Source of the DNA: Desulfomicrobium macestii
Lineage (GTDB): Bacteria > Desulfobacterota > Desulfovibrionia > Desulfovibrionales > Desulfomicrobiaceae
NCBI RefSeq assembly: GCF_014873765.1
Contig: NZ_JADBGG010000025.1
Coordinates: forward strand, 1-64,000
DNA: 64,000 nucleotides
Direction: 5' to 3'
The translations under genes and the position numbers were made by a program. The notes under the pieces are model-generated. The model searched no databases and had not been told where the DNA came from. It worked only from the letters and a program-made list of their open reading frames with translations. Shown piece by piece: positions 32,679 to 52,960 of this stretch (its first letter is position 1; the number at the start of each line of letters is the position of its first letter).

Positions 32679-32680
32679 TC

Positions 32681-34808: not shown

Positions 34809-34831
34809 CTGTCGCCAGAGAAAGGATAAAA

Positions 34832-36298
34832 TCAACATGCTCCCCGGCAACGGAATACTTCTCCCGGAGTCTTGAGTAGAATATAAATATCGAGCCAAAC
34901 AGACCAGTTGCGAACATAGTACGCTTCCAGCCGAACACGTTCGGCATACGAGATGCCGCTTCTGCCGGATACCTGCCACAGCCCGGTCAAGCCGGGCTTA
35001 ACCTTCTTGTAGAGGACGAAGCCCCCCTCATACTTGTCCACCTCATCCCAAACGATCGGCCTTGGCCCAACCAGGCTCAGATCCCCGCGTAGCACGTTCC
35101 ATAGCTGAGGCAACTCATCCAAACTGGTTCTGCGCAAAAAATGCCCTACCCGTGTGATGCGAGGATCGCATGTCAGCTTGTGCTTCTCTTCCCATTCTGC
35201 GCGCAAAGCTGGATCGGACTGAAGGCACTCCTCCAGTACAGCGCCCGCATCGCGGACCATGGTTCTGAATTTCCAGATGGTTATATCTTTCCCACCGAGC
35301 CCGATCCGTTTATGACCGAACAACACAGGCCCCTTGGAATCCAGTTTGATCACCACGGCAATGATTGCGGAAAGAAGCAAAATTAACGGCAAGCAGATGA
35401 AAATCAAGGCCAGTTCCGCACCTCGCTTGATCCACTGTCTTCGCGGATCAAGAAGCTTCTGATGGACTTCAAGGCCCAGAATCCCGCCCATGTCAAAGGC
35501 GGAGATCCAAAGCGACGATGCCCCGAACAAGTCTGGAATTATGATCAATCGCCTGAAATCAGCCGCCGGCCCTTGCAGCACTTCCACAAGCTTGGCCGGA
35601 CCTGCGCCAGGCATCGCCACAATAGCAGTGGCGCCTTTACATTCTTCGGTCACCCCCTTTGCAGCGTCCAATGACCCGATCACCGGCACTCCGTTACAGG
35701 TGGTGCCATGTTTCCGAGGATCATCGTCAAAAAATGCCACCGGCCGCAAACACAAACGGTGTTCGCGGTCCAGCGCTTTGGCCACAGCCTCTCCCGTCCT
35801 GCCAGCGCCCAAAATAATCGCAGGGTGCCCCCAGCGCTTCCAAATTTCCACTTTTCGCCGGACCATTGTCCGAAAAAAAGGCACCGTGCCCAAAACGCCA
35901 ATCCAAGCCATGACAAAAATCCCACGCGAGTATTGATCGCTTTGTTTGGACAAAAATATGGCACCAAGGAGAATCAAAAAAATTACGGAAGTCGACTGAG
36001 TAATTTTCTTAAGCTCAGCGGGCGGACTGAGCAAAATTCCGGGATATAGCCCCGCAATTGCGTACGCGGCAGGGAAAAGAAGCAGAAATGGAATCATGTC
36101 CCAATAAAGAGCAAAACTAAAAGAACCACCCAGAACAAATCTCCCGACGACACTCAAGCACCAGACCAACAACAAGGCTAGGCAGTCGGAAAACAACAAG
36201 AGCCCGGTTACCCTGAATCCAGAAAGCGGCCCCTGCTTCGGAAAGTACGCTTTTAGCTCATCGCCTGAAACCACTCCTTCAGATCTATGCTTGAACAT
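34832..36298 (-). CDS. Polyprenyl-phosphate sugar-1-phosphate transferase (WbaP-type initiating enzyme)
   Basis: 488 aa. It has N-terminal membrane helices, a central Rossmann-like (CoA-binding-like) domain ([20 protein letters not shown]) and the C-terminal bacterial sugar transferase domain ([55 protein letters not shown]). It starts glycan synthesis by moving hexose-1-phosphate from a nucleotide sugar to undecaprenyl phosphate. The start at 36298 overlaps the upstream gene end by 14 bp; the longer open frame lies inside that gene. The donor is often UDP-Gal or UDP-Glc for this type. Confidence 0.92.
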
Positions 36299-37409
36299 CC
36301 CAACGCCCCATTGCGCGTGTATGCGCCTGAAGTTGAATCTCGATAATCTTGGCCATTTCAGCCCTGAACCTCTCCGGCCCAAAACCGCACGCATGCGCCC
36401 GGATTTCGGCGGGATGAAAATGACTATTCATGCCTTCAAATCGTTCGACAGCTTCCATCAACGCATCCTCGGTCTGCTCATGAAAAAAGATGCCCGTCTT
36501 TCCATCCACAACAGTTTCCAACGCCCCCCCCTTGCCAAAGGCAATGACGGGGCGCCCCGAAGCCATGGCCTCGAGAGGCACAATCCCAAAATCTTCCTCA
36601 CCAGGAAAAATCAGCGCCTGGCAACGAGAGTAGTGGTTGCGCAATACTTCAAACGGTTGACGGCCCAAAAACTCGACATTGTTGCCAGCTATCTCACGCA
36701 AAAGCCGCCCTTGTTCACCTTCCCCGATTATGACCAGGCGTTTCCCTGAACGGGTGAAGGCCTTCACTGCAAGATCGGCCCGCTTGTAACCAACCAACTG
36801 CCCGACCATAAGGTAAAAATCATCCTGCTGCTCCGAAACGGAAAAGTCATCCACCGCTACCGGGGGATAAACAACATCCGCGTCACGCCGATAATGCTTG
36901 GCGATCCGCCGCGCGACATTCACCGAATTGGCCACGAAATGATCTACCCTGTCGACGCTGAGCCTGTCCCAAATGCGCAGGTAATGAAGAAGGGGGGCCA
37001 TGAAAAATCTTTTGATTCTACCTGAATTGGACATGTAATCATGATACATGTCCCAGACGTAACGCATGGGTGTGTGGCAATAACAGATGTGCAACGCATC
37101 AGGAGAAGTCAGCACGCCCTTAGCTGGACCGGATTCACTGGAGATGACAAGGTCATACTCGCGGAGATCAAATTGTTCCAGGGCCAAGGGCATCAAAGGC
37201 AGATAGTGTTTGTACCAGCGGTTAGAAAAAGGTAGATTGTCGATAAACGAAGTAAATATTTTTCGAGTTGCCACACATGGAGGCAAAGTTTCTCGATCAA
37301 CGACGTGCGAGAAGATATCTGCGTCTGGATAAAGATTGCATAGTTCTTCTACTACTTTTTCGCCACCTCTTTGGGCTATAAACCAATAGTGAATAATGGC
37401 AATTTTCAA
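36285..37409 (-). CDS. GT4-family glycosyltransferase (mannosyltransferase-like)
   Basis: 374 aa. The start HYWFIAQRGGEKVVEELC is the acceptor-side glycine loop, and the C-terminal GEEDFGIVPLEAMASGRPVIAFGKGG carries the E(x7)E donor motif. The sequence style (CHTPMRYVWDMYHDY) is that of WbaZ/mannosyltransferase-like GT4 enzymes, which commonly act second after a WbaP-type enzyme. It is coupled to the downstream initiating transferase by a 14-bp overlap. Confidence 0.88.
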   Translation of the reverse strand: MKIAIIHYWFIAQRGGEKVVEELCNLYPDADIFSHVVDRETLPPCVATRKIFTSFIDNLPFSNRWYKHYLPLMPLALEQFDLREYDLVISSESGPAKGVLTSPDALHICYCHTPMRYVWDMYHDYMSNSGRIKRFFMAPLLHYLRIWDRLSVDRVDHFVANSVNVARRIAKHYRRDADVVYPPVAVDDFSVSEQQDDFYLMVGQLVGYKRADLAVKAFTRSGKRLVIIGEGEQGRLLREIAGNNVEFLGRQPFEVLRNHYSRCQALIFPGEEDFGIVPLEAMASGRPVIAFGKGGALETVVDGKTGIFFHEQTEDALMEAVERFEGMNSHFHPAEIRAHACGFGPERFRAEMAKIIEIQLQAHTRAMGRWDVQA

Positions 37410-37491
37410 TGAAAAATTCCTACTTTTTGATCAAGAATAAAATTGCATTACCAATAATATGTTTATGATATTTAAATTAAATATCACAACT

Positions 37492-38583
37492 TTAAATATT
37501 TCGGTGTACATCTCGAAGAATTTGAAAAGTCCGTTCAGCCATACGCTGCACATCATGCGCTTCAAGCACGAACTTGCGGGCGCATTTTCCAATAGCTGTA
37601 CGCCGTTCGGCATTCTCTGATAAGAAAATTAATGACGAGGCTGCACTTTTCGGATCTCCTTCTGGATACAAAAATCCTGTTTCGCCGCTGGAAACAGCAT
37701 CCCTGTTGCCCACGACATCAGTAGCTACCACAGGAAGGCCATGGGCCATAGCTTCCAGCACCGCCAAAGGCAACCCTTCCCATTTGGAAGTCGAGAGATA
37801 GCAAAGCGCACCTGCAAACGTGTCATGTGGAGCTAGGGTAGCCCCCGGGCAGAATATCTTTTCAGAAAAACCTGATTCGCTGGCAAGAGCTAGCAGTTTC
37901 TCTCTGTCAGGACCGTCACCAACCACATGAAAAACAAATTCGTCAAGACGCCCTTGAGCACGCAATTCCTGGGCTATTTCGACAATAACCATGCTATTTT
38001 TCTGGATATCAAACCTGCTGAAAGAAATCACTGCCCATGGCGGCCCCACGGCTGGTAGAGCCTCGCTTATAGGGATCACTACGCCATTGTCGACAACATC
38101 GAGTTTTGATTCTGGCATTAATCCTTGGCGTAAAATTTCAGCTTGCTCCCCTTGCGAAACAGCTATTCCCCTTCGGGTGAACAGGGAAGCGCATCGCTCG
38201 TAAAGACGGTACAATTGTCGTTTAAGCGGCCCGTATGCCTGCAGATGTACTCCATGAAAAGTATGAACAGCAGGTATGCCACAAAGCAAGGCTAACAACC
38301 GTGCATACAACCCTGCACCTTTACCATGAGCGTGAAGAATATCGTACTTTTGCTCCCGGCAACGCTTTCTAAGGCGCAGCAGCGTAGACCACGAAAATGC
38401 ACGATGTGGAATCTCAAACAGATTACTATCGCCAACAATGAACCGGTAACGATCAAAGTTAGGGTAGTCGGCTGGACAGGCAACGCTGCACTCGACGTCT
38501 GAGGGTTGATGTTTAAGCAACTGCAACAGGTGCTCAGGGCCTCCACCGAAATCGGCACGGGCAGTGAGAAACAAAATTCGCAT
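37492..38583 (-). CDS. GT4-family glycosyltransferase
   Basis: 363 aa. It starts MRILFLTARADFGGGPEHLLQLL and has the acceptor helix segment HAHGKGAGLYARLLALL, FSRFDIQKNS opening the donor domain, and STSKWEGLPLAVLEAMAHGLPVVATD with the E(x7)E pair. AAGGA lies 8 bp before the ATG. An 82-bp AT-rich gap separates it from the next transferase. Donor and acceptor unknown. Confidence 0.88.
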   Translation of the reverse strand: MRILFLTARADFGGGPEHLLQLLKHQPSDVECSVACPADYPNFDRYRFIVGDSNLFEIPHRAFSWSTLLRLRKRCREQKYDILHAHGKGAGLYARLLALLCGIPAVHTFHGVHLQAYGPLKRQLYRLYERCASLFTRRGIAVSQGEQAEILRQGLMPESKLDVVDNGVVIPISEALPAVGPPWAVISFSRFDIQKNSMVIVEIAQELRAQGRLDEFVFHVVGDGPDREKLLALASESGFSEKIFCPGATLAPHDTFAGALCYLSTSKWEGLPLAVLEAMAHGLPVVATDVVGNRDAVSSGETGFLYPEGDPKSAASSLIFLSENAERRTAIGKCARKFVLEAHDVQRMAERTFQILRDVHRNI

Positions 38584-38621
38584 ATTCGATCCTTAAAATT
38601 AACTCACAAACTATTTAAACA

Positions 38622-39413
38622 CTATAACTTACGCATTACAGAAAAATAATTCCTGAAAAAACGGACAAAATCATCAAGACCCAAAAATTCAAAAAACCGA
38701 CGAACATACCCCCTAACAAGCTGAATTAAAAAATAAAACCTGTTTCGAAAAAAAGATGGAAAATGTTTATCCTTAGCCCGCATAACTTCAAGAATCGACT
38801 TTTTCCAGCACAAATCGGACACCCCCCCCGTACTCATATTCGCCAGAATCACATCACTTACCGCACAAAAACGGTAACCAGCCGCTAGAGCGCGGAGCAG
38901 GAACTCATAATCCATTGCGTACCGGTACGCGGGGTCGAATCCACCAAGAGCCTCGTAAACTGAACGCCGGACAAAAACCGATGGATGATTGATCGACATT
39001 TCCCAACAAAGACGAGCTTGATTAGGATAATAGACGCCTATTGGAGTCTCGCTTTTCCAGTATCGGACAGGACCATGGATAATATCTGCATCGTTCGCGT
39101 GCATCATAGCTGATTTAACTGCATCAATCTCATACCAATCATCAGCATTAATAATACCAATCCATTCGCAACTAGAAAGCGCAATTCCTTTATTGAAAGC
39201 GTCAGAAATTCCATTATCAGGCTCACTGACCCATTTAGTAACCGCAGAACATTTTTTTATTAAATCTACAGTAGAGTCAGTAGATGCTCCGTCAACAACT
39301 ATATATTCAATATTAGGGTAGTCTTGAAATCCAACACTACTAAAAGTTTTACCAATTGTTCTTTCAGAATTTAGGCAGACCGTCACTATAGACACAGAAT
39401 TTGACAGGTTCAT
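38622..39413 (-). CDS. GT2-family glycosyltransferase
   Basis: 263 aa, GT-A fold: VSIVTVCLNSERTIGKTFSSVG, the VDGASTDSTVDLIKK nucleotide-binding strand and the NADDWYE DxD-like segment. The ATG at 39413 gives a normal N-terminus; a GTG two codons earlier is an alternative. The gene and its upstream neighbour are strongly AT-rich, unlike the GC-rich DNA at 41-50 kb. Confidence 0.85.
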   Translation of the reverse strand: MNLSNSVSIVTVCLNSERTIGKTFSSVGFQDYPNIEYIVVDGASTDSTVDLIKKCSAVTKWVSEPDNGISDAFNKGIALSSCEWIGIINADDWYEIDAVKSAMMHANDADIIHGPVRYWKSETPIGVYYPNQARLCWEMSINHPSVFVRRSVYEALGGFDPAYRYAMDYEFLLRALAAGYRFCAVSDVILANMSTGGVSDLCWKKSILEVMRAKDKHFPSFFRNRFYFLIQLVRGYVRRFFEFLGLDDFVRFFRNYFSVMRKL

Positions 39414-39485
39414 AGTCACTCATCATTTTAAACACGTAATATTCCAAATTTTTCAATAAAAACGACGAAATATGCAACTACCACA

Positions 39486-40679
39486 TCATGAATCATGATA
39501 AAGATCGACAGACCCAAAGCTCAAATCGCGCCAGCTAAACCTTAAAGGCAATAAAGAACATGAAAAACCGATACTACACCACAAAGCCCATTCTGACATT
39601 GCATTTATGAACGTATAACCGACCAAAGAAGAAATAATAATTAATACTTTTTTATTGTTCGACTGCAGCAAAGCCCACACTAAAACAAAAATTAAGCACC
39701 AAAGTGACAAATATCCAACCACTCCGAAATCACTCAAAACTTGCAACTGCAAACTATGTTGCTCAATAAAAACGGCACGAACGCCGTCTTTTCTTATCAA
39801 CCCCTGATTAACATATCCAGACAAATCATCGTGCAATAATAAATCCATATCTATAAAATCCAGAGCGTTTTCTAAACTATTAAAATAACCACACCCTAAA
39901 GGACTCTGAATACCGAGCGTGCAGTAAGCCACCCAAAAAGGATAGCGGGCCGACGTTATTTTAGTTAAATATATTTTATCGTCCACAGAAACATAACTAT
40001 CAACAAGCAATAAAGAGACGGGAAACAAGAAAACAAGAAACAAAAAAAACCAACAATAAATTTTAAACAACTCCCGCCTCATCAACATTCCCAAAGAAAA
40101 AACAAAATAAACAATAAACACAGTGCGACTAAACGTAAACAGAGATATAAAAACAATGACCATCCCAACAAAAAAATTAACTCTTTTTCTAAAAGAAAAG
40201 AGGATCATGGAAGCAACAGCACACAACATTCCTGAAAAATTCGGATCTCCAGCAAGCCCAACATATCGAGGAACAACAAAACCAAATATATTTCTTGTAT
40301 GACTTGCATTTTCAAAAAAATAAAACGATAGAAAAAACAGAAAATCGACCACCAAAACAGGAAAAAAAACTCGCAGTATTAAGGTAGGCAAAAAATCATC
40401 GCTTCTTGACGATACATATATTGCACCATAAATTATAAGAAAGAGCTGAATAACTCTAAAATAGGATTCCGCGGGAGCTAAGTGCCAAAAACAGATAATC
40501 AGATTAAAAAAACACGAAACTATTATTGGATAAAATAAAAAAGGGATATTTCTAAATCTAAAGAACTGGACTAACCCAACTAGCGGAAAAAATATGTTAA
40601 AATAAACAAAAGTTCCACACAAATATTTAATTGGAGATACGGCAACAAACGTAGCTAAAATTTTTTCAAGTAGATACAT
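39486..40679 (-). CDS. O-antigen polymerase-like membrane protein (Wzy candidate)
   Basis: 397 aa, almost entirely hydrophobic, with about 10-12 predicted membrane segments and a large loop containing QSPLGCGYFNSLENAL ... IEQHSLQLQVLSDFGVVGYLSLWC. This corresponds to the H-x-N/Q and following helix of O-antigen polymerases or ligases. Low sequence conservation and high Phe/Ile content are usual for Wzy. Inference: it polymerises the repeat unit of the O antigen made here. AT-rich; no clear ribosome site before the ATG. Confidence 0.7.
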   Translation of the reverse strand: MYLLEKILATFVAVSPIKYLCGTFVYFNIFFPLVGLVQFFRFRNIPFLFYPIIVSCFFNLIICFWHLAPAESYFRVIQLFLIIYGAIYVSSRSDDFLPTLILRVFFPVLVVDFLFFLSFYFFENASHTRNIFGFVVPRYVGLAGDPNFSGMLCAVASMILFSFRKRVNFFVGMVIVFISLFTFSRTVFIVYFVFSLGMLMRRELFKIYCWFFLFLVFLFPVSLLLVDSYVSVDDKIYLTKITSARYPFWVAYCTLGIQSPLGCGYFNSLENALDFIDMDLLLHDDLSGYVNQGLIRKDGVRAVFIEQHSLQLQVLSDFGVVGYLSLWCLIFVLVWALLQSNNKKVLIIISSLVGYTFINAMSEWALWCSIGFSCSLLPLRFSWRDLSFGSVDLYHDS

Positions 40680-40989: not shown

Positions 40990-42873
40990 TCAGCTAGATA
41001 TACAACTCACGGGTAAATATTCAGGAACCAATTTTTGGAGCTTTTTTTTGACTCCATCTGAATCAAAGCACCGCGCAGCCTCCAGCAATGTCTCCAGTTT
41101 CCCGTCACTCTCAACAGCAACGCTTTCGGATCGCAGCACCAAGATCTTCTCGTGCCCTGTCTCAAGAACACCCTCGCCCGCCGTAATCAACTCCTCAAAA
41201 AGCTTCTCACCCGGCCGTAGCCCCGTAAATTTGATCTCTATCTCTGCCGGATCCTTACCCGAAAGCACGATCAGATCTCGGGCCAGATCGGCGATGCGTA
41301 CTGGCTGGCCCATCTTGAGTACAAATATCTCTCCGCCCTGGCCTAGCGCACCTGCCTGAACAATAAGCTGGGCCGCTTCGGGGATGGTCATGAAATAGCG
41401 GGTCACGTCCGGATGAGTGACCGTGACCGGGCCGCCGCGTTCGATCTGGCTGCGGAAGAGCGGGATGACCGAGCCCGATGAGCCCAGCACATTGCCAAAC
41501 CGCACGGCCATGAACGTCGTCCCCCTGCCCTGAAAGCCATGCATGAGCAGCTCCGCCACCCGCTTGGACGCGCCCATGACGTTGGTCGGCCGCACGGCCT
41601 TGTCCGTGGACACGAGCACGAAGCGCCCGACGCCATGACGGACCGAGGCCTCCATGACCGTTCGTGAGCCAAGAATGTTGTTGGTCACAGCCTGCCATGG
41701 GTTGCATTCAAGCATGGGCACATGCTTGTAGGCCGCGGCGTGGAAAACGACCTGCGGCTGCCGGGCCATGAAAACAGCCTCCACCAAAGCCGTGTCCTGC
41801 ACCTGCCCCAGCACAGTGACATAACGCGTAAACCCATGCTGGTGCAGGAGCTCCATCTCTATGGAATACAGATTCTCCTCTCCCGCATCGAAAAGAACGA
41901 GCAGGCGCGGATCAAAGCGAATGATCTGCCGACAAAGCTCCGACCCGATGGATCCCCCGGCGCCTGTGACAAGCACCACCTTGTCCGCGAGGTAGCCTTT
42001 GATGCCAGCCTCGTCCAGATGCACTTCCTCACGGCCGAGCAGGTCCTCGTAGCGCACGTCCCGTAGAGCCTTGACCGACACCTTTCCGCTGGCGATATCC
42101 GCCAAGGCGGGCAATTTCTTGATGCGGAGCTGGGCAGCCTCGCAGGCGTCCACGATCTCTCGCAGACGCTCGCCGCTCTGACCCGCGCTGACCAGAATTT
42201 CTTCAGCGCGGGTCATCTGGGCAACACCCTCCAGCGTCGAGAGCGGGCCATAAACGGACAGATCATGGATCTTGCGCCCGATACGGGACTGATCATCATC
42301 CACGAAACCGACCAGATGCAAGCCGGAATCGCGAACGTCCAGAATTTCCTTAGCTATGCGAGCACCATCGGCGTCAGCCCCGACAATAAGCGCCCTTATA
42401 CCGGACTGGGGCGCGCAAAAATTTGCGGGTAGCAGAACAGAACGCCAGTCTTTGGGATATAACGAGATTTCATACAAAGATCGGATCATCACTCTGGCCC
42501 CACATGCGAAAACAAAAGCCAGCAAGGGGTCCAGGATGAACACGGAACGCGGGTGGCCATGGAAATGCGAGGTGAACGCGACATAGATGATGAGCGCCAC
42601 CTCAGCCATGAAAACGGCGCGCCCAATCTTCCAGAGATCAGCCAGCCCAGTGTAACGCCACATGCCCCGATAGAGACCGGTCATCCAGAAAAATGCGATT
42701 TTAAAAAATACGGCCACCGGCAAAAGCGTGGTCATCTGCCGGGCATATTCCGCAGGAATGTCGAACTCGAATCTCAGCAAAAAGGCAATTACCAAGGCCA
42801 TTGCAAAAAAAAAGCTCTCACCGATAAGCATGAGGTAGAGGTTCTTGTTTGTCAGCAACCGTGGAAATTTCAT
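40990..42873 (-). CDS. FlaA1/WbpM-type nucleotide-sugar 4,6-dehydratase
   Basis: 627 aa. Four N-terminal membrane helices (about 10-130) and a CoA-binding-like domain ([17 protein letters not shown]) are followed by the catalytic SDR domain from about 290, with [34 protein letters not shown] (the SMK-type active site of this family, Met replacing the usual Tyr) and [12 protein letters not shown]. It removes water from UDP-GlcNAc to give the 4-keto-6-deoxy intermediate for QuiNAc, FucNAc or bacillosamine. The start at 42873 has AAGGA and overlaps the stop of the upstream transferase (ATGA). The open frame further upstream lies inside that gene. Confidence 0.93.
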
Positions 42874-43859
42874 TGAAATCCTTGCTGTTTCAAAAAATAT
42901 CTTCGCTTTAACGAATAATGCGCCCAAGCCCACAAGACGAATGCAACAACATCGACGCAAATCACATGGCCTATCCCGTTGCGTCTCCCGATCACCACCA
43001 GCAAAACCACCAAAATCTGTATCAATCCGTATGCCACGCTCACTTTCCAATGCGCAATTCCGCGCTCGTTGGCCAAAAACTGATACAGGTGCCTGCGATG
43101 CGGTGCAAGGAGCGATTCGCCGCGCCACAATCGCTCAACCACAGTCACAGCCTCATCTGCATAGAAGGGAAACAGAAAGGACGCAAAAACGAGAAAATCT
43201 GCCCACGAGCGAGCCTGCAGACACACGATCACCGCAAAAAGAAAACCCAGGAAGATGCTGCCCACGTCGCCCATGAAAAGCCTGGCCCGGGGGAGATTGA
43301 ATGGCAAAAAAGCCAGAATCGCACCAATTACCGCCATTATCGGATACGAAAAGTCAGGCAGGGAAACCGCCGTTCCTCCAAAAATCAGCAGACTAGCAAA
43401 GGCGATCAGACCGGTGATTCCCGCCAACCCATTGATTCCATCCATGAAATTGTAGCAGTTGGTCGTGCCGACCACGAAAAAAAGCGCGGGAAAAAGCGCC
43501 AAGACAGGCCAAGACACAAGACCCGTCCACCATGCACTGCCCAAGACGAAAAAAGCGGCCGCAAACTGTGCTATCAGCCTCGTTCCCGCGGAAATACTGC
43601 GCAGGTCGTTGACGAAACTCAAAACCGCCAAGGCCACGATCGGAAGCCAGAAGAACGAAGGCAGCCCGACCGTAAGGCCGACCCAGACAAAGGCCAGTAC
43701 AAAGCCCACTCCGCCACCCTTGGGCGTGGGCCTGACATGGGAACTGCGTTCCCCCGGCATGTCCAGAAAACCTGCTCGGGTCAAAAGGTGGGGAATCAGT
43801 ATGCAACAGGGAATGCTCAACAATACTCCCGCGCATAAATACAGAATACCCCCTGTCAC
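42870..43859 (-). CDS. WbpL/WecA-type undecaprenyl-phosphate HexNAc-1-phosphate transferase
   Basis: 329 aa polytopic membrane protein of the PNPT/MraY superfamily. Motifs are the PTPKGGGVGFVLAF substrate loop, the NCYNFMDGINGLAG catalytic Asp region, FLPFNLPRARLFMGDVGSIFLGF and APHRRHLYQFL (the carbohydrate-recognition loop). It begins glycan assembly by moving a HexNAc-1-phosphate to undecaprenyl phosphate. GTG start at 43859, overlapping the stop of the epimerase. Position between a WbpV-like reductase and a WbpM-like dehydratase is that of WbpL, which uses UDP-FucNAc or UDP-QuiNAc type donors. Confidence 0.92.
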   Translation of the reverse strand: MTGGILYLCAGVLLSIPCCILIPHLLTRAGFLDMPGERSSHVRPTPKGGGVGFVLAFVWVGLTVGLPSFFWLPIVALAVLSFVNDLRSISAGTRLIAQFAAAFFVLGSAWWTGLVSWPVLALFPALFFVVGTTNCYNFMDGINGLAGITGLIAFASLLIFGGTAVSLPDFSYPIMAVIGAILAFLPFNLPRARLFMGDVGSIFLGFLFAVIVCLQARSWADFLVFASFLFPFYADEAVTVVERLWRGESLLAPHRRHLYQFLANERGIAHWKVSVAYGLIQILVVLLVVIGRRNGIGHVICVDVVAFVLWAWAHYSLKRRYFLKQQGFQ

Positions 43860-44827
43860 TTGCGCCTCAACCCTTCGACCATTTCATTGATACCTCTGCG
43901 CAAATCCCAGGATGGGGCAAACCCCAGTTCGCGGCAAATTTTCGCATTGGAATAGCGAGCCGAGCCAGCCAATTTGTCCAATCGATCCCGATTGAATGGA
44001 GAAAGGATTCCGAAGCGCTCCACCATATCACCAAGAAAGGCCGCAGCTTTCAGTGCACCAAAAGGGAGGGGAAGTCCGGGCTTTTTGCCCAAAGCTTCGT
44101 GAATCCAGCCTAGCATCTCTTTTGTCGAATACTCGTTGCCGTCGGTAAGAACATAAACCTGCCCGCAGGCAGCAGGGTTTGCCGCCGCAAGCAGGCAGGC
44201 TTGAACGACATCTTGCACATGAATCATGGAACGTCCGTTGGCAGGAAAGGCCACGGACGGAAATACTCCCTTTTGCACGGCGCGGATCATCAGATCAAGA
44301 TTGCCCTTGCTCCCGGCACCATAAACGAGGGTGGGCCTCAGAACCACCGAGCAAGATAGCGGGAGTTCTTCAAGCACGACTCGCTCGGCTGCGAGCTTTG
44401 TGATGCCATAAGGATTCTGTGGGGAACATGGCGTAGACTCATCCCAGACCTCAACCCCGCCCTCGCCCATGGCCTTGACTGAACTCAGGAGTACGCAAGC
44501 GCGTACTCCGGCTTGCCTGGCGGCACCCAGCAGCGAACGGGTACCGTGCACGTGCACGGCTTCGTATTCGGCGTTTTCAATGGCGTTCTTGGCACGCGTA
44601 TGGGCCTTGCCTGCCAAGTGAAAGATCGTGTCCACGCCATCCAGGGCCCGAGGGTCGACTTCGTCCTGTGCAAGATCGATTTCCAGCACATGTCGCCACG
44701 GTCCCGTTTGCGGCCTGCGCAGCATGGCCGTGACAGCGAAGCCCTGATCCATCAGTTTCTGGCACAGACAGCGCCCGATAAATCCCGACGCGCCGGTGAC
44801 CAGGACGCGAGTTCCAAGTTGATCCAT
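43856..44827 (-). CDS. NAD-dependent nucleotide-sugar reductase/epimerase (WbpV-like)
   Basis: 323 aa extended SDR. It has Rossmann TGASGFIGRCLC, VLLSSVKAMGEGG with the catalytic Ser, and NPYGITKLAAERV with the YxxxK pair. In the same gene order WbpV/WbpK-type enzymes reduce the 4-keto sugar made by WbpM to UDP-QuiNAc or UDP-FucNAc. Inference: that step is done here. It lies 2 bp after the oligosaccharyltransferase gene and overlaps the WbpL-like gene, so the four genes form one translationally linked unit. Confidence 0.88.
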   Translation of the reverse strand: MDQLGTRVLVTGASGFIGRCLCQKLMDQGFAVTAMLRRPQTGPWRHVLEIDLAQDEVDPRALDGVDTIFHLAGKAHTRAKNAIENAEYEAVHVHGTRSLLGAARQAGVRACVLLSSVKAMGEGGVEVWDESTPCSPQNPYGITKLAAERVVLEELPLSCSVVLRPTLVYGAGSKGNLDLMIRAVQKGVFPSVAFPANGRSMIHVQDVVQACLLAAANPAACGQVYVLTDGNEYSTKEMLGWIHEALGKKPGLPLPFGALKAAAFLGDMVERFGILSPFNRDRLDKLAGSARYSNAKICRELGFAPSWDLRRGINEMVEGLRRK

Positions 44828-44829
44828 GC

Positions 44830-46950
44830 CTAATTCGTCACCTTATATGCTCTGGCCCACGGAGAATTATCCACGACCAGGGTGAATTCCTCGGCAAAAT
44901 CCAAGGCTGGGCGCAAGAGCATCTGTACCATCATGGACCGGTACATCTTGGCATCCATCAGAAAAACCTGACGGGACATCTGATTGACGACAACATGCAT
45001 GCCCGTCCCGTTGGGCCACTCGAAATGCCGTGTTCCAGATTTTTCGACCACATCCATGGAGTCAAGAAGGGTCGGCTTGCCGCCAACCACTAAAGTGCCT
45101 GCTGCCGAATCCATACGGACCTCGCCGCGCACTTGCTGAATCTTGCCCGGCGCGCTAGTGCCGGAGGCAATATCCCAATTTCCATAGTAGCTGATCCAGG
45201 AGGCCAAGCGCAGATTTTCCCAGGAAACAATGAAATAGTTCGACAGGCTCGTTGGCCAATTCGTGTCATCCAGAACTAGATCGGACAAGAATTCCTGAGC
45301 TTCAGCAACATCCTTTTTTTGGATATCGGACACTGGATTCCCCGAGAAAAGCGCGGTCCGAAGATCCGTTGTTCTCGCCAGACCATCTTCAAGCATGGCC
45401 TGCCCGAAATACCGAATCAACTGACTCGCCTGTCGCGGAGAGGTGGCGCTGTGTACTTGTGCAAGGGGATAGAGCCACTTCCCGGACTGTCGCCCGCCAT
45501 CACCGAACGTTGCCCGCTCAGCATAGTACTGCCCTGCGTAGCCGTAATCCCACCACTGCCAGAGCAGGGCCTCCGGTTCCGTCTTTTCGCGTAATTCCAG
45601 AAATGTTTCGGCATAGATTTTGGGTAATACCGGCACGGGCCTGACCTCTTGCATAAACACCGCCGAGGGCCACAAGACAACGCATGCCAGAACCAACTGT
45701 GCGATCCAACGCCGTCCCTGACTCTGGCCGAGCATGCTCATAAATTCACTCAGCCCCAAACCAAGTCCCATGCCAATGCCTACCGTGCCGTACATGGCAA
45801 ACCTGTTCCCAAGCTTAACGCTGGCAAGACCAAGGACAAGAAAGGGCAAAAATACAAGAAGCGCAGGGCGACGCCAACTGACAAAACCAAAGCCCAAAAT
45901 ACCCAGAACAAAAACGAACCAATTTCCCCCCAAACGTGGTCCGAGCAGCCCCCAGTCAAGGTTTTGCGCCTCACGCACGCTCTGGGCAATATCGGGGAGT
46001 TTCATGCCCGTGGCGTTGTTCACCATCTCCGGAGTCGCCACCTTGGCGTACATGTAAAGCCTCTGCAACAAGCTCTGGAAAATCGAGTCCACGTTGCCCA
46101 AGTATGCAAGAAATCCTGCTATGGCGATCAGGATCAGCATCAAAAAAACCGAGGAAAATTTAGCGCGGAACACAACAAGAGCAGCCGCTGTCAATACGGA
46201 AAAAAGGAAGCCGAACCAACCGGCAAACGCGGTTCCAAAAGTCAGTAACAGTCCCACCCACAGAAAAAACCTGAACTCCCTGCGAATCAGAAAAAAGCCC
46301 AGAAGGCCCGACAGTCCCAAAGCCGGAAGCAATACGCTCGAACTTCCCGGGTAGAAGTACAGGGCCATTTTTCCGCAAATCCCCGCCACTAAGGCCAACG
46401 CCAAACTCTGGAGACCAGCCCCACCGGCCATGTCTCTAGACAGGGACTTATTTTTCAACATCTCGATCCAGGCGGCCAGGCAGCAGACCATGGAGACCGG
46501 GAAAAGCAGATTGATGACATCGGTATCACAAAATCCGAGCCGGGTGCGCACAAGAAACCCGATGCCGGACGTGACCAGAATGCCGAACACCAACCCACCA
46601 TCAGGCAGGCGCAGAAAGCGGGCCAGCAGACAAACCGGAACCGCTAGCAAAGGGACAAAGACAACGGGCGCCCAAAAACCGACAGCAGCCACAGGGAAGC
46701 CAAGACTTACAATGCCCCGCAGCAACACCGTAATAGCATCATGCACATGCCGCCCAATCATTTTCACTCCGGCCAGCCACGTGTATGCGTCGTGGGTAGC
46801 CATGAGGTACCCGCCGTCCAGGATAAACGCCTCATTTTGCCACAGGGGGAGTTCCGCCAAGCGGACGGCCACTGCCGTGAAAATCACAAGGCCCAAAGCC
46901 AGCCAGCATTCCGTGGCAAGAGAGAAAGAAAAGCGATCAGGGTTGGTCAT
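44830..46950 (-). CDS. pglB: PglB/STT3-type oligosaccharyltransferase
   Basis: 706 aa, the usual size of bacterial PglB. The N-terminal membrane part has the first catalytic Asp in ATHDAYTWLAG (Asp54), the RTRLGFCDTDVINLLFP motif (Asp142 and Asp144) and an external-loop SVRE sequence (324-327) matching the SVxE/TIxE glutamate. The periplasmic domain carries the family hallmark WWDYGY (466-471) that reads the Asn-X-Ser/Thr sequon. All catalytic positions are present, so it should be active. Family knowledge: PglB moves a lipid-linked oligosaccharide to protein Asn and needs an acetamido group on the first sugar. The downstream WbpV/L/M-like trio would make exactly such a HexNAc-first donor. 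Confidence 0.93.
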   Translation of the reverse strand: MTNPDRFSFSLATECWLALGLVIFTAVAVRLAELPLWQNEAFILDGGYLMATHDAYTWLAGVKMIGRHVHDAITVLLRGIVSLGFPVAAVGFWAPVVFVPLLAVPVCLLARFLRLPDGGLVFGILVTSGIGFLVRTRLGFCDTDVINLLFPVSMVCCLAAWIEMLKNKSLSRDMAGGAGLQSLALALVAGICGKMALYFYPGSSSVLLPALGLSGLLGFFLIRREFRFFLWVGLLLTFGTAFAGWFGFLFSVLTAAALVVFRAKFSSVFLMLILIAIAGFLAYLGNVDSIFQSLLQRLYMYAKVATPEMVNNATGMKLPDIAQSVREAQNLDWGLLGPRLGGNWFVFVLGILGFGFVSWRRPALLVFLPFLVLGLASVKLGNRFAMYGTVGIGMGLGLGLSEFMSMLGQSQGRRWIAQLVLACVVLWPSAVFMQEVRPVPVLPKIYAETFLELREKTEPEALLWQWWDYGYAGQYYAERATFGDGGRQSGKWLYPLAQVHSATSPRQASQLIRYFGQAMLEDGLARTTDLRTALFSGNPVSDIQKKDVAEAQEFLSDLVLDDTNWPTSLSNYFIVSWENLRLASWISYYGNWDIASGTSAPGKIQQVRGEVRMDSAAGTLVVGGKPTLLDSMDVVEKSGTRHFEWPNGTGMHVVVNQMSRQVFLMDAKMYRSMMVQMLLRPALDFAEEFTLVVDNSPWARAYKVTN

Positions 46951-46973: not shown

Positions 46974-48098
46974 TTAACGGGTCATGCGCGCTTTAGCCAA
47001 AGAGGCGTACACGGTGAGAGTTTCCGCAATGATGCGCTCCGAGGAAAATTCGGAAATGGCCAGGTTTCTGGATGCGAGGCCCATGGATTTCCGTAGTTTA
47101 TCGTCCGATATCAGTCTATCCAATGCATCCGCCAAAGCCAAGGCGTCCCTGGGCGGGACCAAAAAACCGTTAACTCCTTCAGCCACAGTCTCCCTGCACC
47201 CCGGAGTGTCCGTGGTGACCACGGGAAGCCCTGCGGCCAGCCCCTCCAGTACGAATTTCGGGATTCCTTCCCTGTATGAAGGTAAGCACACAATATGACA
47301 ACTTTTCAGAAGTGCGGGCATATCTTCCCTGTATCCCAGCCATTCCACAGTATTGCTCTCATGCCAGCCATACAGCACCTCACGTGGGATACTGGCAGGA
47401 TTGCTCTCATCCGGATCGCCTGCCAAAACCATGCGAACATCAACGCCCCTTGCTCGCAATAAACGCGCGGCCTCGACATACTCTCCCACGCCCTTGTCCC
47501 AGAGCATACGCGCGGCAAGAAGAACAACGCACGGCCCCGGTGGTTCAGAGGACGCCTGTATGGCCGCCACATCGACCCCAGCTCCGCGGATCAGATGCAC
47601 CCGATGACAACCCAAACCGCGAATCAACTCGGCGTCATCCCGATTCTGCACGATGACGCTCGTGCGAGGCAAAATGACGCGAAAAAGCGACAACACGCTC
47701 CATTTTACGATACGAGCAAGCCATGTTCCAGAGGCAAGAATCCAGCCCATGCCGGCCAGAGCGTTCACGACATGCCGGACTCCACACAAGCGGGCGGCGA
47801 GCGTGCCATAAAGAACGGGCTTCATGGCAACGTGGTGCACTATATCCGGCTTTTCCCTCCGATACACCCGGACCAGCCGCCAGAGCACCCACGCTTCCAA
47901 AAACAGGTTCATGGCCCGCCGGGACATTTCAAACGGAACCAGCCGCAAGCCCGCGTCACGAATGCGTTCCCCGTGGGCCGTAACCCGGGTGACCACCGCG
48001 ACATCATACCCCGCGTCCTTGGCGGCAATGGCGAGAGGCAAACGATGCGAACAAAAATACCAATCCTCGCTGACGAAATAGAGGAGCTTTTTTTTCAT
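46974..48098 (-). CDS. GT4-family glycosyltransferase (PglA-like)
   Basis: 374 aa from ATG 48098 ([23 protein letters not shown]). The motif [31 protein letters not shown] and the C-terminal [24 protein letters not shown] with the E(x7)E pair belong to the GT4 group that adds the second sugar on undecaprenyl-linked HexNAc (PglA and WbnH types). It lies 23 bp upstream of the PglB gene. Inference: it makes part of the PglB donor glycan. It overlaps the asnB stop by 4 bp. Confidence 0.87.
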
Positions 48099-50050
48099 TT
48101 CCAGCGATCCAGCCAGGATTGAAACATGAGCACATTCCATAGCAGATGTTGCCAATTCCTCGTGCCTGCGAGATGCTCCGCCCATTTTCTGCGTATCGGG
48201 ACCGGATCGAAATAGCCGTCTTGAGCAAGGCGTTGTTCACTGAGCAAATCACCGGCCCACTCCCGCAACGGGCCGCGCAGCCAAGCGTCCAGTGGTACGC
48301 CAAACCCCATCTTGGGTCGCTCGACCAAAGCCGAAGGGACATATCTGTGCAAAACCTGTCTTAAAGCCCATTTGCCTTGGCCGCAGCGAATCTTCATCTC
48401 CAACGGCAAACTCCAGGCAAACTCGGCAAGACGGTGATCCAGGAAGGGAACTCTAGTTTCCAGGCTCACCGCCATTGTCGCCCGGTCCAGCTTCACAAGA
48501 ATGTCATCGGGAAGATATGTCGTCAGATCTAGGTACATCATGAGATGCGCAAAATCCGGACACTCGGGCCACGCATCAGGGTCAGACACATGGGTTCGCG
48601 GTTCCCCCCCCCCAAGCACAACCTGCGCGGGGTCGTTCCAGTGAGTAACAAAATGGCGATACAATGATTCGAAATCTTGAGCATCCAGCACGCCAGCCAA
48701 CTTGTGAATCTTGTCTCCGGGGCTAGCGTGTCTGATTCGCGTTGGAAGCACATTCCCGAAAAAAGCAACAAACTGATTCCAGCGCCGAGGAGGAAGAGAT
48801 GTCAACAGCGTCGACAGAATCTTCCGCAATCGAAGCGGCACCCATCGCCCACGTCGCAATAGCCTCAGCCCCCAAAGATGTCGGTTATAACCACCAAAAA
48901 GTTCATCTCCACCATCGCCCGAAAGGGCGACGGTGACATGACGGCGAGCCAGTTGCGCGATCAGATAAGTCGGTATCTGGGATGAATCTGCGAAGGGTTC
49001 ATCATATATATCTGGAATAAGGGGAATGATTCGCCTAGCCTCTTCTGGAGCCACATAAAGCTCCGTATGATCGGTGCCAAGATGCTTGGAAACACGCAAA
49101 GCATGCTGCGCTTCATCATACCCACTTTCATGAAAACCAACAGTAAATGTTCGAACAGCGCTTGAAGACAAAGACTGCATGATCGCAACAACTGTAGATG
49201 AATCCACTCCGCCAGACAAAAAAGCACCTAAAGGCACATCGGCTACCATTTGGCCAGAAATGCTTTGACAAAGCAAACGCTGCAACTCGTTTACAGCCTC
49301 AATATCATTGCCGCAAAATTTATTCCTCAGGCCATTTGTGACGACTTGGCTGGCGGACCAATATGCCTTAACCTGACCACTCGCGACGTGCCCCGAACCG
49401 GGCGCTGAAAATTCCACCCAGGAACCGGGCGGAAGCTTCCGGATATTCTCGTAAATACTCCAGGGCGCAGGTACGCAATTGTGACGCATAAAAAGCGTCA
49501 ACGCCCGACGATCCACAGAGTTATTAAAACCGGGAAATGCTCTGATAGCCTTGAGTTCGGAAGCAAATACAAGTGACCTACCGACCCAGCCGTAATAAAG
49601 TGGCTTTTCTCCGCAGCGATCACGAGCCAGAAAAAGTTTGCGCGCCGCCCGATCCCACAATGCAAACGAAAACATACCCACGCTCTTTGAAAGCGCGCCT
49701 TCAATGCCCCAAACCTCGATTCCAGCGAGCAGCGTTTCGGTATCAGAGTGGCCGCGCCAAGTGGGCGAGTCCCCGAAACATTCCAATTCCGCGCGAAGCT
49801 CGCGATGGTTGTAAATTTCCCCGTTGAAAGCGACCACAAAACGCCCACGGGCCGAAATCATAGGCTGATGTCCCGCAGGAGAAAGATCCAGAATACTCAA
49901 ACGCCGATGCGAGAGCGCCAGTTCACCAACCTCGTCCACCCACACGCCGGAGTCGTCCGGGCCGCGATGAGCGAGGGCCAGAGCCATCGCCATGGCTTCT
50001 TGATGATGGCTTCCGCCATCCCTCGTCCAGAACCCGGCTATTCCGCACAT
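48095..50050 (-). CDS. asnB: Glutamine-hydrolysing asparagine synthase
   Basis: 651 aa. The N-terminal glutaminase begins at Cys2 ([11 protein letters not shown]) with the [12 protein letters not shown] segment, and the C-terminal synthase domain has the [16 protein letters not shown]-loop and [17 protein letters not shown]. AsnB-like amidotransferases occur in many O-antigen and exopolysaccharide loci, where they may amidate uronic acids or modify sugars; asparagine supply is the alternative. Start with GGAG eight bases upstream, overlapping the previous gene by 13 bp. It is embedded in the glycan operon, so a sugar-modifying role is plausible. Confidence 0.9.
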
Positions 50051-51000
50051 GCGCCCACTCCGGTCAGCTTGGTTGGCGCAGACTTGTGACGAAACTTCCG
50101 CGCCCTTTGGAGTACCGTGGCAGGCGTGAATTCAAGAATGGCAAGGCCAAGGCGAAGTCTTATGCTTCCAGCCGTTTGTGCCAAGCGTCTAATGGCGCGC
50201 AAGCCGGCAACGTCTCCAGACACCTTCATGCCGGCAGCGGTGAAAAAGGAAATTTTTTCGAACAAAAGACGGGCGGAGTCAATGTGTGCATGCGGCAACC
50301 CGTGCTCGCTAAGCATCTTTGCCAAGTACACCAACGAACCTGGCGGTTCCTGCTCCCGGAGATGGATGGAGCGATTGATGGCGTCGCGATGGTAAATTGC
50401 TGTACGAAATGGGGCGTGGGCCATGCCTGCGGTCAAAAAAAGCCTAGTCCAGAGAATGATGTCTTCACCCCTCCGAACCCCTGCGGGAAAGCCGCCCTCC
50501 GCCAAAGCCATCATTCTCGGCACGGCTGCGGTGGTCGAATTGACCAAGGACAAGCCAGCCGCAAATGAACCAAAAAAATCCTCCACAAGACAAAAGCCGT
50601 CATTTTCGGAAAAAGGTGAAGCAGGCTCAAAAAATTCTATACCGTCCCGGATGAAATGCATGGTGCTATAAAGGCCTTTATCTGGAAATGCTCTAAACAA
50701 CCTGACAAGCGTGTCCAGATGACTTGGGAGCCACTCATCGTCAGCATCCAAAAAAGCGATTAGATCCGTGCCAGCCTCGCTCATCCCCCTATTTCGAGCG
50801 GCGCTCACTCCTAGATTCTTTTGAGAAATCAGACGCAGTCCTTTCATCTCAAACAGTCTAACGATATCTCCGCCCCCATCCGTGGATCCATCATCCACAA
50901 CGATCACTTCGGCAGGCTCGTAAGTTTGCCGTTGAATGGATCTCAAAGCACGCTCTATATGCGCAGCTTTGTTATACAAGGGCACAACTACGGTAATCAT
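50038..51000 (-). CDS. GT2-family glycosyltransferase
   Basis: 320 aa from ATG 51000, overlapping the upstream stop (ATGA). GT-A motifs: [32 protein letters not shown] and [14 protein letters not shown] (DxD). The C-terminal third is basic and of unknown role. Its 3' end overlaps asnB by 13 bp. Donor and acceptor unknown. Confidence 0.88.
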
Positions 51001-51746
51001 GCCCGCCACACCTTGATACGAGACCAATTTTTAAGAATGCGCGCAACCAACAATATTAGCTGCAACAACAATCCGTGCCCTACTCGTACCTGAACACGAA
51101 AGCCCTCCACGAGTGTTCCAAGTATATCTTGCCCACTGAAACCTCCGTGATAATATTTCCCGGCAATGAAGGACTGTTCACACACTGTGGCACCGCCATG
51201 TATGGCTTCTAAAATAAAAAGTTGATCGGCTGCTATCGGAAATGATCGAGAGTAATACCCAAATCGTTCATGCAGAGAGCTACGAATGGCCAATCCCACA
51301 GCGTGACAGCCCACATGAGCAAATGGTCCGTATAACCACTCCCACTTTCTTTTGCGTACTCCGCAGATACGACCAGCCCCTTCGACGAGCGCGGTCACGA
51401 AATCTGCGTTAGTGCTTCTACATGCGACCTTGTATTGCGCTACGGCGTCTGGGAAAAACTCGTCGTCAGCGCCTATCACAATATAATAATCACTGTCCGC
51501 CATTCTTACACTCCGGTTGAGAGCATCATAAATTCCAAAGTCCGAACGCGTATCTACCGTCACATTTAAGCTCTTTGCTGCATCGCGCAGAAGCGCAAGT
51601 GTCTCATCAGTCGACCCACCATCAGCGACTATCCATATAAAATCCGGATCACTTTGGGACTTCAAGGAGTCTATAAGGCGAGGGAGATACTCGGCTGTAT
51701 TGAATGTTGCAGTTATGATTGCAAGGCGAACTGACGAGGCAAGCAT
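50997..51746 (-). CDS. GT2-family glycosyltransferase
   Basis: 249 aa: AIITATFNTAEYLPRLIDSL, ADGGSTDETLALLRD and VIGADDEFFPDA (DxD-like). It is the first intact gene downstream of the IS cluster at 51.8-54.7 kb. No promoter is obvious in the 57 bp before the element end, so transcription of this end of the glycan operon may depend on read-through from, or a promoter created by, the insertion sequences. Confidence 0.85.
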   Translation of the reverse strand: MLASSVRLAIITATFNTAEYLPRLIDSLKSQSDPDFIWIVADGGSTDETLALLRDAAKSLNVTVDTRSDFGIYDALNRSVRMADSDYYIVIGADDEFFPDAVAQYKVACRSTNADFVTALVEGAGRICGVRKRKWEWLYGPFAHVGCHAVGLAIRSSLHERFGYYSRSFPIAADQLFILEAIHGGATVCEQSFIAGKYYHGGFSGQDILGTLVEGFRVQVRVGHGLLLQLILLVARILKNWSRIKVWRA

Positions 51747-52931: not shown

Positions 52932-52952
52932 GATGATTCTCATTGTGTGAGG

Positions 52953-52960
52953 TTAATCTA
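52953..52960. repeat. Target-site duplication, left copy (TTAATCTA)
   Basis: The 8-bp TTAATCTA directly abuts the left inverted repeat of the IS4-family element and is repeated exactly at 54505-54512. Confidence 0.85.

Follow-up and report, generated by a model that had tools for sequence, protein, structure and literature searches.

Gene content of the pglB locus

The DNA analysed here, referred to below as the window, is a 64,000-nucleotide stretch of the Desulfomicrobium macestii genome (NZ_JADBGG010000025.1, positions 1 to 64,000). ORF reading combined with Pfam searches revealed a unit of four genes on the minus strand (positions 40990-46950), comprising pglB and the genes of a reductase, a transferase and a dehydratase. 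The intervals are 2 bases (PglB-reductase), -4 (reductase-transferase) and -4 (transferase-dehydratase, with the dehydratase ATG at 42873), and all four genes have Pfam matches; the nearly gapless or overlapping arrangement on one strand described in the initial annotation was thus borne out. The pglB gene (44830..46950) encodes a PglB/STT3 oligosaccharyltransferase of 706 aa, with matches to PF21436 (62.4 bits) and PF02516 (39.8 bits), both above the cut-off. It is followed by the genes of a predicted WbpV-like SDR 4-reductase (43856..44827; PF01370, Epimerase, 127 bits; GASGFIG and YGITK motifs), a polyprenyl-phosphate HexNAc-1-phosphate transferase of the WbpL/WecA type (42870..43859; PF00953, Glycos_transf_4, 96 bits; 8 hydrophobic segments) and a UDP-GlcNAc 4,6-dehydratase of the WbpM/PglF type (40990..42873; PF02719, Polysacc_synt_2, 388 bits). 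The ORF of the dehydratase was listed from a GTG at 43128, but translation most likely begins at 42873, where an ATG shares the sequence ATGA with the transferase stop. The reductase, the PF00953 transferase and the PF02719 dehydratase therefore lie together, as in a WbpV-WbpL-WbpM-like unit. The dehydratase also matches C. jejuni PglF (5BJU, 320 bits), the type of 4,6-dehydratase that belongs to a bacillosamine set, and bears the motif TNVMGASK, which we take to be of the Ser-Met-Lys type.

Upstream of pglB, on the same strand, lie a GT4 glycosyltransferase gene directly adjoining it (46974..48098; PF00534, 115 bits), whose product is a candidate second-sugar transferase, followed by genes of an asparagine-synthase-like amidotransferase (48095..50050; PF00733, 408 bits), two GT2 glycosyltransferases (50038..51027 and 50997..51746; PF00535, 104 and 69 bits) and a Wzx-type protein (58607..60136; PF01943, 62 bits; 11 hydrophobic segments), a candidate for flipping the glycan. 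This last gene is separated from the rest of the locus by transposase genes (51863-54490 and 57728-58531).

The neighbouring genes at 30927..40679 were counted outside the system. They encode an MsbA-type ABC protein, a Nucleotid_trans protein and an O-antigen ligase on the plus strand, and WbaP, three glycosyltransferases and a Wzy-like protein without a Pfam match on the minus strand. WbaP, the Wzy-like gene (39486-40679) and the ligase form a separate set (33.5-40.7 kb). The ABC protein (30927-32678) was rejected as a PglK, being MsbA-like. Scans of the window for promoters (8 found, 7.6 expected) and terminators (22 found, 17.3 expected) gave results at and little above chance level, respectively, and there was no Rfam match at the gathering threshold and no tRNA.

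Two starter cassettes at one place in the genus

The initial annotation had seen no PglD/PglE pair and had proposed looking for pglC, pglD and pglE elsewhere. Genome-wide searches for the three proteins led us to reject a complete bacillosamine set elsewhere in the window genome; the earlier observation holds throughout this genome for close orthologues, and PglC is absent as well. The short PglC-type Bac_transf protein is lacking, the two Bac_transf matches lying in frames of 491 and 531 aa, and the NeuD/PglD model TIGR03570 found nothing above its cut-off. On contig 26, a DegT gene was rejected as PglE (28% identity to PglE, though beside a hexapeptide gene), as was the hexapeptide gene as PglD (28-29% identities for the pair); the negative result for PglE refers to close orthologues, and among the DegT matches the one beside the hexapeptide gene was compared with PglE. 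In itself, the lack of PglC, PglD and PglE says little, because 78 of the 133 PglB-bearing genomes of the sampled order possess neither starter by the thresholds used (a transferase being a match above 200 bits, a level also reached in G123, which has no PglB).

A comparison within the genus revealed two kinds of locus: type A, with the order pglB-reductase-transferase-dehydratase, and type B, with the order pglB-PglC-(PglD)-PglE-dehydratase. Type A was found in the window and in G034, G029, G058 and G044 (five species), and type B in G014, G024, G052, G039, G073 and G064 (six species; the G073 contig ends within PglE), with pglB at the same place. Fourteen of the 16 genus genomes could be typed, including two (G061 and G075) without PglB in the assembly, and none carries both cassettes; in three genus genomes the contig ends before pglB. 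The 13 Bac_transf matches in the five type A genomes all lie in frames of at least 460 aa, and no type A genome has a PglC match that reaches 54%. A NeuD-type gene of G044 that exceeds the model cut-off was rejected as PglD (35% identity); it is located at 433.6 kb, and pglB at 3,697 kb of the same contig. In the four other type A loci, the reductase relatives are 77-89% identical to that of the window, and a relative of the GT4 gene adjoins pglB upstream in two of them (60% identity). A sixth linked set, with the same six genes in another order, was found in a genome of another family (G007), where the GT4 relative (48%) lies within the set, but beside the reductase, and is adjoined by a relative of the amidotransferase (56%).

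Between pglB and the dehydratase gene that both types share, the reductase-transferase cassette and the pglC-pglD-pglE cassette substitute for one another. DNA comparison of three A/B pairs gave 81-87% identity for the dehydratase genes, beginning near codon 9, and no match between the cassettes upstream of this point; the window dehydratase is 64-85% identical to those of type B. On the SecA tree, in which the sequence of G061 fills just 24% of the alignment columns, a single origin of type A was rejected (AU p 1e-6), and at least three cassette changes are needed. The gene trees of the locus conflict with one another: on the PglB tree, A and B each form one clade (support 100/100 and 99/99), whereas A as one clade was rejected for the dehydratase (AU p 3e-6). 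The dehydratase, common to both pathways, thus recombines between types, while PglB splits cleanly with the cassette. Because PglB and the cassette adjoin, linked inheritance of neighbours alone could explain the common clades. As this position is occupied by the ordinary starter genes in close relatives, it seems that nature swaps the sugar at the base of the chain as a cassette. The proposal of the initial annotation that PglB is coupled to a non-bacillosamine starter is thereby supported more strongly than the window alone could reveal: in relatives the bacillosamine set replaces the reductase and transferase, the exchange is repeated, and PglB follows the cassette.

Another question is which sugar the trio would supply. 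The reductase is predicted to convert UDP-4-keto-6-deoxy-GlcNAc into UDP-QuiNAc or UDP-FucNAc, and its product would, judging by family membership, be loaded by the transferase. The transferase family is known to take GlcNAc, QuiNAc or FucNAc, which leaves some room for a linking sugar that is D-FucNAc and not D-QuiNAc, or for a transferase that loads plain GlcNAc, the 6-deoxysugar being added later. In line with this alternative, the reductase stays under every sugar-specific curated cut-off, its closest solved SDRs are distant (best 74 bits), and the transferase reaches 61 bits with the WecA model, which is under the cut-off. However, the trio is contiguous in all five type A loci, and the exchange affects transferase and reductase jointly, leaving the dehydratase in place, which suggests one pathway; we therefore regard the alternative as possible but rather unlikely. 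For the WbpL/WecA-type family, QuiNAc and FucNAc are given as substrates in PMC3726653.

PglB and its association with the starter genes

The product of 44830-46950 is, by its sequence, a real member of the PglB/STT3 family, and transfer to asparagine would be its expected activity. Among solved structures, those of PglB match it best (100 bits), and the AlphaFold model (mean pLDDT 89) superimposes on PglB 6GXC with Z 37.0 and 3.1 A over 665 residues, giving the GT-C fold with a periplasmic domain seen in 5OGL/6GXC. It scores 121.6 bits against the NCBIfam PglB equivalog NF050801 (cut-off 1300) and so falls outside the equivalog while still being a family member. The catalytic motifs noted initially were confirmed: D54, D142, D144, E327 and WWDYG at 466-470 match what we take to be the metal-binding and catalytic residues of C. 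lari PglB (D56, D154, D156, E319 and WWDYG). In an alignment of 120 PglB rows, which includes some duplicates and fragments, no substitution of D54, D142, D144, E327, W466, W467, D468 or G470 occurs among the 116-119 rows that cover the respective position; at Y469, 103 rows have Tyr and 16 have Trp or Phe, and Arg is found in 56 rows at R339 (C. lari R331). A profile search of the window genome found one STT3 match only. It could be argued that PglB is a relic or a neutral passenger of a recombining surface-sugar locus, given the disagreement between gene trees and the 67-77% identity of PglB between species whose SecA proteins are 94-98% identical. An intact 706-aa frame, invariant catalytic residues, a confidently predicted PglB fold and the retention of a single copy by all five type A genomes make this highly improbable.

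Gln488-Ser489 of the window PglB align with C. lari H485-L486. The Gln-Ser pair is present in all six trio-linked PglBs, that of G007 included, and in none of the 34 other aligned rows of the order; it is derived in the trio-linked PglBs. Outside the order, Gln at this position is frequent (32 of 79 named-collection rows). We rejected Gln488 as a mark shared by all non-bacillosamine starters: it occurs widely among Thermodesulfobacteria and Aquificota, where one Gln-bearing locus (L134) holds PglE-like and short transferase genes beside pglB, and His is kept in the PglBs of G003, G038 and G199, genomes with the trio or part of it elsewhere. For C. jejuni PglB, PMC3527161 describes a fall in yield to 16% when H479Q is combined with a CP5 glycan. 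Type A and type B PglBs differ in 32 fully discriminating columns (5 A and 5 B rows; G039 was left out, its PglB containing a run of X). The equivalent of C. jejuni N311 (A322 by eye) was rejected as a discriminator, as the position is also Ala, Val or Thr in type B.

The starter genes themselves are not specific to PglB, and as a general rule such a mark was rejected. Transferase relatives were followed up in 19 further genomes of the phylum: PglB was found in none of the 20 surrounding stretches (5-20 kb), of which 13 also contain reductase and dehydratase relatives; in L265, the order amidotransferase-GT4-reductase-transferase-dehydratase is that of the window minus pglB, and in another genus of the family (G003) GT4, reductase, transferase and dehydratase lie together without PglB. 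Conversely, the trio adjoins pglB in none of 79 named loci. These data raise the possibility that the trio starts an O-antigen or exopolysaccharide repeat, with PglB as a tenant that uses another Und-PP glycan or taps that polysaccharide, comparable to the use of the P. aeruginosa O antigen by the O-linking TfpO/PilO; in the tapping variant, the starter sugar would still reach protein. The genes upstream in the type A relatives are mostly of low GC3 and variable between species, as in O-antigen loci, and an O-antigen ligase lies 10 kb away. However, that ligase belongs with WbaP and the Wzy-like gene to a set of its own, and the replacement of reductase and transferase by the bacillosamine set beside pglB fits PglB, and not a polysaccharide, as the constant partner.

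Polymerase content also bears on this explanation. A simple hydrophobicity count, applied to unassigned frames of at least 150 aa with at least five hydrophobic segments, gave no polymerase candidate upstream of the dehydratase in the stretches read of the four other type A loci or from 46.9 to 65.6 kb in the window, and the result was the same with one frame per place and without that filter. In these same regions each of the five type A loci has one predicted flippase, and besides the transferase, PglB and the N-terminal segments of the dehydratase no other protein has at least five segments. In G034, the alignment of an ABC protein (L269:9447-11258) with PglK spans both proteins entirely and scores 275 bits, against 186 for the best MsbA row, and longer P-glycoprotein entries score above PglK. 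With a flippase and no polymerase candidate, type A loci resemble a pgl locus. Of the O-antigen-like character suggested in the initial annotation, the initiator, glycosyltransferases and flippase are thus present, but a polymerase candidate is lacking and the WbaP, Wzy-like and ligase genes stand apart. On balance, the polysaccharide explanation appears unlikely.

Proposed pathway and comparison with known systems

Textbooks give bacillosamine as the sugar with which bacterial N-glycans begin. The reading we consider probable is that of a pgl-type N-glycosylation locus with a non-bacillosamine starter cassette, D-QuiNAc or D-FucNAc being the linking sugar. The dehydratase would convert UDP-GlcNAc into UDP-4-keto-6-deoxy-GlcNAc, which the reductase would reduce at C4 to UDP-D-QuiNAc (or its C4 epimer UDP-D-FucNAc), replacing the amination and acetylation by PglE and PglD. 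The WecA/WbpL-type transferase would place the sugar-1-phosphate on undecaprenyl phosphate, the upstream glycosyltransferases would extend the chain, the Wzx-type flippase (a PglK-like ABC protein in one relative) would flip the lipid-linked glycan, and PglB would move the whole oligosaccharide onto an asparagine of periplasmic proteins. The 2-acetamido group required by PglB would be retained, and the difference from bacillosamine would be confined to the C4 substituent. There are about even chances, in our estimation, that Asn-linked D-QuiNAc (or D-FucNAc) is a natural linking sugar of bacterial N-glycans, that its starter cassette and the bacillosamine cassette are swapped en bloc between pglB and the shared 4,6-dehydratase gene, and that PglB adapts by a His to Gln change next to the acceptor nitrogen. 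If so, bacterial N-glycosylation would have a linking sugar that can evolve and be swapped as a module. Many PglBs occur in genomes without bacillosamine genes, and the locus offers a concrete, testable answer on the first sugar for one group. Moreover, types A and B in one genus constitute a natural matched pair in which recognition of the first sugar by PglB can be studied, and the trio provides candidate enzymes for glycoengineering with 6-deoxy-HexNAc reducing ends.

In the literature searched, mostly outside subscription journals, we found no report of this pglB-trio arrangement and no glycoprotein or sugar analysis for the genus. As in the C. jejuni pgl system, a single-subunit OST, a PglF-type dehydratase, a flippase and glycosyltransferases are combined in one locus, and the type B relatives further share PglC, mostly PglD, and PglE next to pglB. 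In contrast, the window genome has no close PglC, PglD or PglE orthologues, their position is taken by a reductase and a WecA/WbpL-type transferase, and the PglB residue aligned with C. lari H485 is Gln, not His. The three starter enzyme kinds are those of wbpV-wbpL-wbpM initiation in P. aeruginosa O6, where WbpV is proposed for UDP-D-QuiNAc and WbpL adds D-QuiNAc as the first sugar according to PMC4773840 and PMC3726653, the latter calling the role of WbpV not known or just proposed. However, the O6 product is an O antigen made with Wzy, while the unit described here includes pglB in a locus without a polymerase candidate. The PglBs of D. gigas, D. desulfuricans and D. vulgaris belong to the same order, and the N-glycan of D. 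gigas HmcA, as described in PMC4894442, consists of three HexNAc and is apparently not bacillosamine-led; unlike the window, none of 18 pglB stretches of family f5 (probably Desulfovibrionaceae) has a transferase relative with the trio beside pglB. Helicobacter pullorum PglB1 uses a reducing-end HexNAc instead of bacillosamine, with a WbpS-type amidotransferase in the pathway, but that system is initiated by PglC and not by a WecA/WbpL-type enzyme, and the available part of the report mentions no 4-reductase (PMC6025236). N-glycans without bacillosamine are already known, and the present locus would be a further variant.

Gene content and predicted pathway of the window locus

The window belongs to a genome of 4.5 Mb split over 99 contigs. 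Read in the direction of transcription, its minus strand encodes two GT2 glycosyltransferases, then an amidotransferase resembling asparagine synthase, a GT4 glycosyltransferase, PglB, an SDR reductase, a PF00953 transferase and a 4,6-dehydratase. The spacings across the last four, the pglB operon (40990-46950), are 2, -4 and -4 bases, confirming the nearly gapless or overlapping arrangement on one strand described in the initial annotation; the most likely dehydratase start is an ATG that overlaps the stop codon of the transferase gene. The PglB assignment is secure: Pfam and the nearest solved structures, together with an AlphaFold model (mean pLDDT 89, pTM 0.88; Z 37 to 6GXC and 5OGL), identify the protein as a bacterial STT3/PglB. 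Retention of its catalytic motifs, claimed at first sight, was borne out, as D54, D142, D144, E327 and the W-W-D-x-G of WWDYG are identical in every aligned PglB row with letters there, Y469 being variable among the relatives (Trp or Phe in 16 aligned rows). PglB is the only STT3 match in the genome and is common in the order (133 of 199 sampled genomes, E 0.001). R339 (C. lari R331) is kept, and the acceptor rule is uncertain because D. gigas PglB is described as relaxed despite having this Arg (PMC4894442). Elsewhere, G002, a genome of the same order (L015, L047), carries three full PglB genes, each on its own contig, one of them near a 69% PglE relative. L165, a contig labelled Alphaproteobacteria, also holds a gene similar to PglB (27%) with a WWDYGY motif; Alphaproteobacteria are not among the groups from which PglB is usually known.

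In the proposed pathway, the dehydratase would convert UDP-GlcNAc to a 4-keto-6-deoxy sugar, the reductase would reduce it at C4 and the transferase would load the product on undecaprenyl phosphate; GT4 and the GT2s would extend the glycan, Wzx would flip it and PglB would transfer it to Asn. Family knowledge and the case of P. aeruginosa O6 favour D-QuiNAc as the probable first sugar, with D-FucNAc as the alternative: in O6, WbpV is placed in the UDP-D-QuiNAc pathway and WbpL is described as adding D-QuiNAc first (PMC4773840, PMC3726653), while the role of WbpV is also called not known (PMC3726653). D-QuiNAc is bacillosamine with OH replacing the C4 acetamido group. According to PMC6215017, D56 and Y468 of C. 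lari PglB can bind the 2-acetamido group; their window counterparts, D54 and Y471, do not vary in either of the PglB alignments A1 and A2.

Relatives of the amidotransferase (48095-50050; 31-34%) adjoin pglB in several Helicobacter loci, and H. pullorum WbpS has been proposed to amidate a HexNAcA in its N-glycan (PMC6025236), so an amidated uronic acid in the window glycan is conceivable. Transposase genes (51863-54490; 57728-58531) interrupt the glycan locus on the stretch that separates the pglB operon from the Wzx flippase gene, namely an integrase-like frame identified by eye (51863-52360), an IS4 family transposase over the cut-off (53060-54490) and an ISL3-type transposase (57728-58531).

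Two starter cassettes at one place

Comparison of the pglB stretches of the window and ten other genomes of the genus revealed two kinds. In type A (the window, G034, G029, G058 and G044), pglB is followed by reductase, transferase and dehydratase, and in type B (G014, G024, G052, G039, G073, whose contig stops within PglE, and G064) by a short PglC, PglD, PglE and dehydratase. Identities of type B proteins to those of G014 are 67-75% for PglC, 58-61% for PglD and 64-75% for PglE; Pfam assignments of the G014 genes agree with this naming, and five of these six loci score over the TIGR03570 cut-off. The G064 locus (L040:6686-8294) is missing PglD and carries HAD-like and ATP-grasp-like genes, recognized by eye, between PglC and PglE, with a NeuD-type gene elsewhere in the genome; this locus may represent a third variant of the first sugar, whose 4-amino group would carry a different acyl substituent. 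A seventh type B locus (G055, PglC-PglD-PglE-dehydratase, the dehydratase split over two frames) and two more of type A (G061 and G075, transferase-dehydratase) lie on contigs ending short of the expected pglB position, and a search of these three assemblies found no PglB. Thus, one cassette is present in 14 of the 16 genus genomes (G019 and G079 being left untyped) and both in none.

In three A/B pairs, the dehydratase DNA matches at 81-87% from about codon 9 to near the gene end, and no DNA match was found across the cassettes. Where pglB is present on both sides, it matches at 66-71% in parts, plus one 40-base piece at 85%. PglF and WbpM are established makers of UDP-4-keto-6-deoxy-GlcNAc, the intermediate common to both pathways, which is why the dehydratase could stay while the next enzymes change. 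The exchange leaves pglB and the dehydratase in place and replaces only the steps that set C4 of the first sugar and load it, which favours a partnership with PglB. In the dehydratase tree, which has some long branches, A and B are intermixed and a single A clade is rejected (AU p 3e-6); in the PglB tree, each type forms one fully supported clade. The SecA tree requires three or more switches of type on well-supported branches and rejects a single origin of A (AU p 1e-6), with G061 (filling only 24% of the columns) and G075 scored as A and G055 as B; in a tree restricted to the 12 genomes with full loci, one change suffices. Besides SecA itself, G058, G014, G044, G024, G029, G055, G061 and G079 have a shorter SecA-like gene (43-51% to SecA).

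The initial annotation had suggested looking for pglC, pglD and pglE elsewhere, and no bacillosamine set was found elsewhere in the five type A genomes. A PglC search across 348 genomes of the order gave none of these five a match of 54% or higher, and all 13 of their Bac_transf matches lie in frames of at least 460 aa. NeuD/PglD over the cut-off is absent from the window genome (G000), G034, G029 and G058; the sole case, in G044, is located elsewhere and is 35% identical to PglD. Such absence alone is weak evidence, because, of the 133 genomes with PglB among the 199 sampled, 78 have neither starter (PglC match of at least 54% in 48, transferase relative above 200 bits in seven, both in none).

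Proposed partnership of the starter trio with PglB

The reductase-transferase-dehydratase trio is not confined to pglB loci. In G003, from another genus of the same family, GT4-reductase-transferase-dehydratase stands without PglB, which is on another contig, and in G038 the trio has no adjoining PglB. No PglB was found within 20 stretches (5-20 kb) around transferase relatives in 19 other genomes of the phylum, 13 of which stretches also contain reductase and dehydratase relatives. Since the starter genes occur without PglB, the trio appears to be a widespread polysaccharide starter that was joined with pglB. GC at third codon positions also speaks against a dedicated unit: it is 0.21-0.50 in most genes upstream in the type A relatives, as in hypervariable O-antigen loci, versus 0.56-0.73 for pglB and the trio, a contrast that is weaker in the window and not shown by G007, a genome of another family. 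Protein and LPS may share one glycan. In favour of a PglB partnership, one flippase per locus lies upstream of the dehydratase, beside the transferase and PglB (Wzx-type in G044, G029, G058 and the window, PglK-like ABC in G034), and no polymerase candidate was found there as far as the loci were read (in G044, G029 and G058 to a peptidase-like gene taken as the left border, in G034 to 25 kb beyond pglB, in the window to the contig end at 65.6 kb). By this gene content, the type A loci are composed like a pgl locus. The G034 locus also carries a NeuB-family gene (L032:18435-19529, L269) and others resembling nonulosonic acid synthesis, and its N-glycan may carry a sialic-acid-like sugar.

A link between the trio and PglB is also suggested by G007, which has the same six genes in a different order (identities: dehydratase 57%, PglB 42%, transferase 44%, reductase 50%, GT4 48%, amidotransferase 56%). 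Where C. lari PglB has H485-L486, Gln-Ser is found in all six trio-linked PglBs, those of the five type A genomes and of G007. The other aligned rows of the order (n = 34, out of 133 genomes with PglB) show His (31), Asn (2) or Gly (1) at H485. The change looks parallel, because the PglB tree places G007 apart from type A, albeit on a long branch; at four other PglB columns discriminating A from B, G007 shares the A state, which is also present in outgroups. The corresponding C. jejuni H479 is described as part of a loop that is believed to contact the sugar, at 4.6 Å from the nitrogen of the acceptor, and H479Q as giving 16% yield (PMC3527161). As a mark of the partnership, Gln-Ser is suggestive rather than proof, because Gln is common at this position outside the order (32 of 79 rows) and the PglBs of G003, G038 and G199, genomes with the trio or part of it sited elsewhere, keep His.

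Relation to known systems

In the literature searched, we found no report of pglB linked in the genome to a WecA/WbpL-type starter for 6-deoxy-HexNAc that is exchanged in place with a bacillosamine cassette. The components are known separately: PglB systems, wbpV-wbpL-wbpM units and apparently non-bacillosamine N-glycans, the last described in D. gigas and H. pullorum (PMC4894442, PMC6025236).
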